Of a stretch of 34,693 nucleotides of DNA, positions 4,198 through 26,535 are shown in pieces (position 1 is the stretch's first letter; each line of letters begins with the position of its first letter). The stretch is from Candidatus Doudnabacteria bacterium CG10_big_fil_rev_8_21_14_0_10_41_10 (GTDB taxonomy: Bacteria > Patescibacteriota > Doudnabacteria > UBA920 > 2-01-FULL-50-11): contig PFAJ01000053.1 in NCBI GenBank assembly GCA_002773695.1, positions 1 to 34,693 of the forward strand, given 5' to 3'. Under the pieces are notes generated by a model. That model saw only the letters and a list, made by a program, of their open reading frames with translations, was not told the origin of the DNA and did not search any database. A program made the position numbers and the translations under genes.

Positions 4198-4530
4198 CTA
4201 CTCCTCAATCGACTCGATATACAAATGATCGGAAAATTTCTTGGTTGAAAATGAAGGTATTTCAGAGGCTGTATACAACTCCTCATCAACGGATTCAATA
4301 TCCCCTGTTTCATCTTTTTGAATATCGATAATTTGCTTATTGAGGGATTCGGTTTGCTCGGCCAGAGATTCAAGTTTCTGCGAGAGTCGGTCGAAATGGT
4401 CTCCGGATTTTAGCTTTTCGTATTCTTCTATTGACATCACGACCAATTGCGCATCACCGTTTTGATCCACCACAAAAACTTTTCCGTTTTCTTCTTTTGC
4501 CAGTTTAATAATTTTTTCTAATTTTTTCAT
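4198..4530 (-). CDS. Phd/YefM-like small protein, 110 aa
   Basis: The N-terminal half (LEKIIKLAKEENGKVFVVDQ, then VVMSIEEYEKL) resembles the DNA-binding fold of Phd/YefM antitoxins, in which a short basic helix region is followed by 'xxPxxVxxSxxxYexL'. The C-terminal half is acidic and coiled-coil-like, with repeated SLxEQ/SLNKQ patterns. The second of two adjacent ATGs (4530) is chosen because it gives the usual family start MKKLEK. No adjacent toxin gene is visible, so this is probably a solitary regulator rather than half of a toxin-antitoxin pair. It sits between fusA and tuf in the str operon and is flanked by REP-like repeats. The family assignment is moderate. Confidence 0.6.
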   Translation of the reverse strand: MKKLEKIIKLAKEENGKVFVVDQNGDAQLVVMSIEEYEKLKSGDHFDRLSQKLESLAEQTESLNKQIIDIQKDETGDIESVDEELYTASEIPSFSTKKFSDHLYIESIEE

Positions 4531-4540
4531 CATATTATTA

Positions 4541-25664: not shown

Positions 25665-25704
25665 AAAAAAAATCCTTGGTTTCCCGCATCCAAGGACTCT
25701 TTTT
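25665..25704 (+). terminator. Terminator after the ZIP gene (bidirectional)
   Basis: TCCTTGG (25673-25679) pairs with CCAAGGA (25690-25696) across a 10-nt loop. An eight-A run lies upstream and CTCTTTTT downstream. Its right half is the 20-bp sequence duplicated at 26516. Confidence 0.75.
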
Positions 25705-25705
25705 G
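25686..25705. repeat. Left copy of a 20-bp direct repeat bracketing the tetrapeptide-repeat gene
   Basis: GCATCCAAGGACTCTTTTTG is identical to 26516-26535, exactly 830 bp away. This copy is the right arm of the ZIP terminator; the second copy lacks the matching left arm. Confidence 0.85.
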
Positions 25706-25731
25706 ACAATGCCACAACGATGTGGTATTTT
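25703..25731 (+). promoter_or_regulatory. Promoter for the tetrapeptide-repeat gene
   Basis: TTGACA at 25703-25708 and TATTTT at 25726-25731 are 17 bp apart. The -35 begins inside the direct repeat/terminator arm. Confidence 0.65.
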
Positions 25732-25755
25732 TGGTTGTTGGAAAAAGGAGGCGAA

Positions 25756-26391
25756 ATGGCAGTTAACCGGCAAGGTCTAAGCGACTTTCTCCTGCAACAA
25801 GGAGTGCCGCAAGACAAAGTTAAAAACGCGATGGCTCTGGTAGAGCCGTTGTTCCTGGTTGCCGAAGGAAAGAGAAAAATTCTCTTACCCCCAACCGAGG
25901 AAACCAAGCCGGAAGTCCTCGCTGCGCTGCAAGGACTTTTCGGGCAGGAGCAGGCACGCAAAGTCCTGCTTGTTTCGTCAAGCGAGCCTTTTGCCCGGCC
26001 CGAATGGATGACGGAAGAATCCTACCAAAAGGCTGTCCAGGCCACGCTCGTGAACACGCTCGGAGCCACGCTCATGAACACGCTCTTGGACACGCTCGAG
26101 GACACGCTCGGAGACATGCTCTGGGTCATGCTCGGGGCCAAGCTCGAGGACATGCTCCGGGTCACGCTCGTGAACACGCTCTTGAACATGCTCTGGGGCA
26201 CGCTCGAGGACACGCTCTGGGACATGCTCTGGGGCACGCTCTTTTTCTACTTCGGCTTTCTGCTGGCCGGAGAAGAACACGAAGAGCGGGTGGCAAAGCT
26301 CGCGGCTTTGACGCAAGTCATTGCCAAAGTCTGGTTGCCTTTCGGTGTGAAAAGTGACGAGCCGGGCTGCTGGCTCGTTATGGTTGCGTGA
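25756..26391 (+). CDS. Protein with 17 tandem xTLx tetrapeptide repeats, 211 aa
   Basis: The start at 25756 is fixed by AAGGAGG 4-5 nt upstream. Residues 1-95 form a soluble, helical-looking domain (MAVNRQGLSDFLLQQG at the start; a PEVLAALQGLFGQEQARKVL region later). From residue 96 there are 17 consecutive four-residue units of the form x-[TM]-L-x, such as NTLG, DTLE and DMLW, 68 residues in all. A tail of about 48 residues follows, beginning FFYFGFLLAGEEHEERVAKL. No known fold is recognised; the period of 4 could build an amphipathic helix with a slowly turning hydrophobic stripe, or a solenoid. It ends in TGA before a terminator and is bracketed by 20-bp direct repeats, suggesting an acquired cassette. 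Codon choice in the repeats is notably GC-rich. Confidence 0.8.
   Translation: MAVNRQGLSDFLLQQGVPQDKVKNAMALVEPLFLVAEGKRKILLPPTEETKPEVLAALQGLFGQEQARKVLLVSSSEPFARPEWMTEESYQKAVQATLVNTLGATLMNTLLDTLEDTLGDMLWVMLGAKLEDMLRVTLVNTLLNMLWGTLEDTLWDMLWGTLFFYFGFLLAGEEHEERVAKLAALTQVIAKVWLPFGVKSDEPGCWLVMVA
26041..26244 (+). repeat. 17 tandem copies of a 12-bp unit
   Basis: Units follow the pattern nnCAyGCTCnnG (for example AACACGCTCTTG). The run is exactly 204 bp without indels, and all changes keep the Leu codon CTC. One unit has AAG (Lys) instead of ACG/ATG. The regularity suggests recent expansion by slippage or recombination with selection on the repeat. Confidence 0.9.
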
Positions 26392-26413
26392 AAGGGGGGC
26401 CTGGTAATTTCTG

Positions 26414-26451
26414 ACCACTTCGTCACTTCGGTGACGCTGGTGGTTTTTTTT
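26414..26451 (+). terminator. Terminator after the tetrapeptide-repeat gene
   Basis: ACCAC..CGTCAC and GTGACG..GTGGT form a two-part stem closed by a TTCG tetraloop and followed by a run of eight T residues. Confidence 0.8.
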
Positions 26452-26515
26452 GTTTTAATACTTACTTGTTTGAGCCAATTTGCCGAAAAGACAAAGATGA
26501 GGCCAAGCATCAACG

Positions 26516-26535
26516 GCATCCAAGGACTCTTTTTG
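26516..26535. repeat. Right copy of the 20-bp direct repeat
   Basis: Identical to 25686-25705. It lies just upstream of the YibE/F gene and probably represents the original junction between the ZIP terminator and the YibE/F promoter (possible extended -10 TGGTAAAAT at 26543-26551). Confidence 0.85.

Follow-up and report, generated by a model that had tools for sequence, protein, structure and literature searches.

The question raised by this locus is whether a protein built around seventeen four-residue units in a Candidatus Doudnabacteria genome is an isolated oddity or one member of a wider class, and what such an array could be for. The window, i.e., the whole stretch of 34,693 nucleotides analyzed here, is a 34.7-kb contig in a 1.08-Mb genome (G000) of 70 contigs that is 94% complete. 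Our best explanation as a whole, on which our confidence is evenly split, is that the gene encodes a family protein with a tunable helical interaction array, possibly related to conflict with mobile elements.

The array protein and its gene

The gene lies at positions 25756..26391 on the forward strand and encodes 211 residues from an ATG start to a TGA stop, as given by translation and by full-length homologues in the same frame. A Shine-Dalgarno sequence (AAGGAGG, 25745..25751, forward strand) was located by a script search, and a terminator-like hairpin (ACCAC/GTCAC-TTCG-GTGAC/GTGGT, then a T run; 26414..26451, forward strand), which also occurs on contig C55, was read in the sequence. A consensus scan returned a promoter-like TTGACA-N17-TATTTT (25703..25731, forward strand); because 0.9 such sites are expected by chance, it is a candidate only. 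The spacer of this candidate promoter contains the operator-like palindrome AATGCCACAACGATGTGGTATT (25708-25729). Homologues keep the N- and C-terminal domains in frame +0, which is thus regarded as the translated frame, and the ribosome site serves this frame too. The ORF is therefore taken to encode a genuine protein.

The array occupies 26041..26244 on the forward strand (residues 96-163) and consists of 17 four-residue units, x-[TMK]-L-x, of 12 bp each. The number and position of the units given by the first-pass annotation were borne out by tandem repeats finder (TRF), unit listing, and translation. TRF reports the array as 16.7 copies of a 12-bp unit (score 148) or as a 36-bp period (score 199), and with such scores a chance origin is out of the question. 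The leucine codon had been described as invariant, and it is indeed CTC in 17/17 units. The label xTLx proposed for the unit is a simplification that fits the preceding slot only loosely, as this is filled by Thr (11 units), Met (5), or Lys (1). The first residue of the units is N/A/D/V/G, and the residue after leucine is V/G/M/L/E/W/R. Codon 4 follows [A/G]NC and codon 3 is mostly NNG. By entropy, the variation lies in the non-core slots and in the first two bases of their codons, except that one slot alternates between G and A at the third position. Third positions are otherwise almost invariant (pN 0.31 vs pS 0.09).

The middle of the ORF has its best hydrophobic period at 4.0 (power 15.4, p 0.002, the minimum attainable), in agreement with the earlier statement that the period is 4, neither 5 nor 7. 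Pentapeptide repeats have a period of 5 and form an A[DN]LXX beta helix, and heptad coiled coils have a period of 3.5. The window protein shares with both a short period and a regular hydrophobic position but differs from both in its best period and in having no Pfam match, and on these two grounds its assignment as a pentapeptide repeat was rejected.

AlphaFold2, run with a 24-row alignment, gave a model with a mean pLDDT of 84.4 and a pTM of 0.78. The N-terminal domain (residues 1-95; 25756..26040, forward strand) carries an RPEWM motif at residues 81-85 and is kept in the homologues P0002 and P0003. It had been called helical, which is roughly right, as the model has three helices plus one strand. 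The structure prediction that had been proposed for the array residues folds them as three helices (87-115, 119-146, and 153-171), followed by a helix (173-190) and two strands. The C-terminal domain (residues 164-211; 26245..26388, forward strand), conserved across the family, comprises helices and then a beta hairpin ending in PGCWLVMVA. The middle of the protein is thus predicted to be alpha-helical, its helices packing between the two terminal domains, with a moderate pLDDT of 67-81 in the array and with the general caveat that structure models of repetitive sequence can mislead.

Searches with the sequence against Pfam, PHROG, NCBIfam, PADLOC, and PDB returned no match, and Foldseek found none for the model in PDB or BFVD at E<=0.001. 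These libraries thus placed the protein in no characterised repeat family, and profile searches returned unnamed relatives from Patescibacteria. The impression of an undescribed repeat protein is supported in part. The protein is not an isolated oddity: it belongs with a multi-copy Patescibacteria family, arrays with units of 12 bp and four residues are common in phage proteins, and one unrelated case, gp54 of mycobacteriophage Tweety, was published in 2007.

An unnamed family in Patescibacteria

Because the end domains are homologous, the window protein very probably belongs to an unnamed Patescibacteria family with an N-terminal domain, a period-4 helical middle, and a C-terminal domain. A genome of the same taxonomic family (G001) encodes a full-length relative with 30% identity over residues 1-211. 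In G291, from another class of Patescibacteria, a 228-aa relative (P0003) shares both end domains and has xSLx units read in the corresponding frame. A single-protein query gave no match against the genome contigs, and the two-row alignment query gave a sole match there, the Candidatus Doudnabacteria MAG record MFEO01000033, which is the closest relative found. A two-row profile (A1) matched 2/49 genomes in the window's own class. With a four-member profile, the family was detected in 16/381 genomes of the class of G291, with up to nine matches per genome, and a 24-row profile matched 8/380 genomes across the phylum. Genome G603 has nine family matches (L012, L027, L036, L040, L042, L044, L045, and L047) in at least eight separate places, strongly diverged from one another. 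The family was sought in phages and viral contigs, and none was found there.

Alignments show the conserved N-terminal domain with its RPxWM-type motif in the window protein, together with a C-terminal domain of the type ending in PxGxxxDxxGxWLVLVA, by which the family is recognized. The family splits into two clades, that of the window protein ending in PGxWLVLVA and the other ending in NFPVGFDKDGNLLVLVA. The C-terminal domains of the two clades (C1 and C2) are homologous (HHalign probability 97.5%, E 8e-12). Members such as P0002, P0003, L028, and L015 share both end domains and the same-frame period-4 middle with the window protein. They differ from it in two respects: in many members no DNA repeat is visible, whether through loss or because there never was one, and those that bear one use xSLx where the window protein uses x[TMK]Lx.

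The periodicity is not confined to members with a DNA repeat. A hydrophobic period of 4.0 in the middle region exceeds shuffled sequences (p<0.05) in 18/35 members, and about half are without it. Among the members that show it, the best period is mostly 3.95-4.1, not 3.6, and it is also seen in members with no visible DNA repeat (L013, L003, L025, and L044). Since the period is often kept where the DNA shows no obvious repeat, it looks structural, and the DNA repeat looks like a young or homogenised version of an older protein pattern.

The main rival to a tunable array is a linker under no selection, a tolerant helical spacer in which 12-bp slippage proceeds with no tuning. Units of 12 bp are prone to slippage, and array length differs both among the relatives and among phages. 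This explanation is kept alive by the arrays of the Patescibacteria relatives, in three of four of which (L007, L008, and L015) pN is about equal to pS. However, neutrality does not readily account for period-4.0 hydrophobicity in members that lack visible DNA repeats. Synonymous drift would also be expected of a neutral array, whereas the window array combines its uniform CTC codon with x slots that vary only in the first two bases of the codon. We consider a neutral linker a serious but somewhat unlikely alternative, and a tunable helical array in the middle of the protein remains the moderately probable reading.

The locus and its possible acquisition

Upstream of the gene is a ZIP-like transporter, and downstream of it a YibE/F gene (PF07907). 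No conflict gene adjoins the ORF, and PADLOC gave no match. The gene lies between two identical 20-bp direct repeats (GCATCCAAGGACTCTTTTTG), the first at 25686..25705 on the forward strand, 50 bp upstream of the ORF, where it forms the 3' arm of the terminator-like hairpin of the upstream transporter gene. The second, at 26516..26535 on the forward strand, follows the ORF at a distance of 124 bp and lies 830 bp downstream of the first. The 18-bp core of the repeat occurs only twice in the genome with two mismatches allowed. The putative acquired insert (25706..26535; 830 bp) comprises one gene and one repeat copy and has a GC content of 0.54, compared with 0.63 for the array and 0.43 for the window. 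The natural inference from this arrangement is that the gene was acquired as a one-gene insert. An empty site was sought via synteny and none was found; the YibE/F gene was not found in the three other genomes of the window's family.

Flanking direct repeats were also considered as a hallmark of all members with arrays. Four array-bearing cases looked positive at first, but the repeat in G291 is dispersed and L028 and L015 are tandem gene copies; the generalization was rejected, and the repeats are kept as a feature of the window gene only. The dispersed repeat, TGTCATCCTTACTTTTTATTTTGTCATC, lies around the G291 loci on contig C10 (L138 and L139) and elsewhere, with at least 28 copies in G291 when up to three mismatches are counted. 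Within G000 itself, a C-terminal remnant of a second gene copy, possibly a pseudogene, is present at C55:10318-10428 (L002); it carries the same terminator-like hairpin and lies about 80 bp from the contig end.

These features could also be read as those of a mobile, possibly phage-derived cassette that entered the chromosome recently and is carried without benefit. The perfect 20-bp repeat with its two copies genome-wide, the raised GC content of the insert, the remnant on C55 with its shared terminator, and the patchy distribution of the family all fit this description. Against it, no phage contig carries the Patescibacteria family, the repeats around relatives are dispersed repeats (e.g., in G291) or effects of tandem copies, and the window reading frame is intact. 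Recent entry as a cassette is also compatible with a tuned function. The cassette reading as a whole is, in our judgment, unlikely, and we retain the tunable array as the preferred reading.

Arrays in phages and the proposed use

Published reports of such tetrapeptide arrays amount to essentially one in the literature searched, and a search for xSVx or xSLx strings printed as a repeat found none. In mycobacteriophage Tweety, gp54 contains 48 12-bp units with two invariant Ala codons and invariant third positions, and its authors considered the variation, which falls on first and second positions, to be in keeping with selection for diversity among the units (PMC2884959). Our re-analysis of the gp54 sequence recovered the published entropy pattern. 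According to a review, escape mutants with more or fewer gp54 repeats overcome the Phrann gp29/gp30 defence (PMC9262239). Like the window protein, Tweety gp54, Che8 gp57, and PMC gp51 have a central array, with units of 12 bp and four residues, between unique N- and C-terminal domains (PMC2884959; PMC9262239). In arrays of the Tweety type, as in the window array, the first two codon positions vary, third positions are fixed or nearly so, and length varies between relatives. In contrast, the gp54 units are AA[GWQ][SY] with two invariant codons, and those of the window are x[TMK]Lx with one. Tweety gp54 is phage-borne with a reported counter-defence role and matches phrog_3416 at 1e-142, whereas the window protein is not homologous to it and has no PHROG match.

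By analogy with Tweety gp54, the likeliest use of the window array would be as a module for protein-protein interaction that can be tuned in conflicts with phages or other mobile elements. As related arrays suggest, slippage or recombination would add, remove, and reorder 12-bp units, leaving frame and fold intact. Such turnover would alter the length of the array and the side chains exposed at the positions flanking [T/M/K]-L, and these changes could in turn tune the placement of the end domains and their binding partners. Hypervariability of this sort was shown in phage arrays and would extend to the Patescibacteria family by analogy. A conflict role for the window protein is our best guess because of the Tweety analogy, the patchy occurrence of the family with several copies per genome, and a locus that looks like an insert, and taken singly we rate it as rather unlikely.

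Related designs are widespread in viral sequences. A synthetic xSVx query, whose letters (W/R/G and D/A) bias which xSVx arrays get found, recovered 216 viral contigs, of which 80 were kept (L052-L131). The phage arrays have about 14 to 58 units and are placed between two domains. Eight array proteins, including two from an xSLx query, were scanned for those domains, with PF20530 (DUF6745) above cut-off in three and PF24703 (DUF7666) in two; neither flanking domain is present in the window protein (Pfam). The xSVx proteins resemble the window protein in their period of 4, in a small polar residue before the hydrophobic one, and in having the array between two domains. Their flanking residues (W/R/G/E/M/K and D/A/N) are also similar, and their arrays are likewise predicted as helices with moderate confidence. 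They differ in a Ser-Val core, compared with Thr/Met-Leu in the window, and in their flanking domains.

A phage xSVx protein with 17 units was predicted (pLDDT 86.6) to fold its array as three helices, with a further helix and strands behind them, and Foldseek found no match for this model in PDB. Its C-cap matches the Patescibacteria caps weakly (HHalign 14-25%, E about 0.001), scoring 20.9 against a maximum of 15.5 in 60 column shuffles, so that homology between them is suggestive only. HHalign gave no similarity between DUF6745-type caps and the Patescibacteria caps, and no support for homology between the N-terminal domains of the Patescibacteria family and the phage proteins.

Variation in the phage arrays is confined to few positions. 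Among 72 distinct arrays with 1699 units, strong variation occurs only at base 7 (NGG, encoding W/R/G; 1.48 bits) and base 11 (GAC/GCC, encoding D/A; 0.99 bits), and the other ten bases have <=0.17 bits. The unit alphabet thus comprises six letters (W/R/G x D/A). pN exceeds pS in 69/72 arrays, and pS is zero in 49. Ser and Val codons are nearly uniform inside each array and different between arrays, and for this reason homogenisation combined with selection on residues is the simplest reading of how the phage arrays have been shaped. Array lengths showed no clear quantisation by 2, 3, 4, or 7.

Comparisons of closely related contigs, for which repeat misassembly is a caveat, indicate that the phage arrays change much more quickly than the sequence around them. 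L076 (IMG/VR 2840788187_000004) and L095 (2884628140_000001) have 2.6-kb flanks that are 99.96% and 99.4% identical, and their 51-unit arrays differ widely by block rearrangement, with 10 consecutive units in common (at most 6 in shuffled arrays). L072 and L097 are alike only close to the array, over about 300 bases on its upstream side and 600 on its downstream side; their arrays have 29 and 27 units, and the order of the units is not the same. L105 and L130 are identical over 3 kb on each side and differ by one base, at position 11.

A diversity-generating retroelement, or a similar targeted mutator, would account for variable NNC and NNG codons, and both the [A/G]NC and NNG codons of the window array and the confinement of marked variation to bases 7 and 11 in phages are in line with it. 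It is nevertheless very improbable, as reverse transcriptase (PF00078) is absent from the 94% complete genome, L076 and L095 differ by block rearrangement and not by point change alone, and the variable positions are the same from array to array even though the Ser/Val codons are not, which points to selection on residues.

Least probable of all, and close to negligible, is a DNA-level feature or translation of another frame: the array region is also open in minus-strand frames and in frame +2 (reading HARx, 26004-26357), whose residue entropy in the array is below that of frame +0 and the lowest among the open frames, but openness of several frames is no proof of coding, the ribosome site and homologous end domains are all in frame +0, and the alternative frames of the G291 array read ASGT-type strings with no resemblance to those of the window. 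Frame +2 was accordingly rejected as coding, since the relatives conserve frame +0.

The family is unnamed, and the array class is much broader than the one published case, although the kind is already known. With such arrays present both in an entire Patescibacteria family and across hundreds of phage contigs, the oddity becomes a testable class, and the questions it raises are what the array binds and whether specificity is encoded by length or by unit order. A wider proposal, which we regard as speculative and unlikely, is that period-4 helical arrays are widespread, undescribed combinatorial modules of phages and Patescibacteria, with a fixed core and two free residues, rewritten by recombination much faster than their flanks. 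Such modules may allow recognition or spacing to be retuned rapidly where mobile elements and cells are in conflict.

Elsewhere in the window, a small ORF on the reverse strand (4198-4533) lies between the EF-G and EF-Tu genes and has, by eye, a Phd/YefM-type antitoxin-like N-terminus, for which the str operon is an unusual place. Further ORFs on the forward strand are found toward the contig ends (196-783 and 33263-34450).
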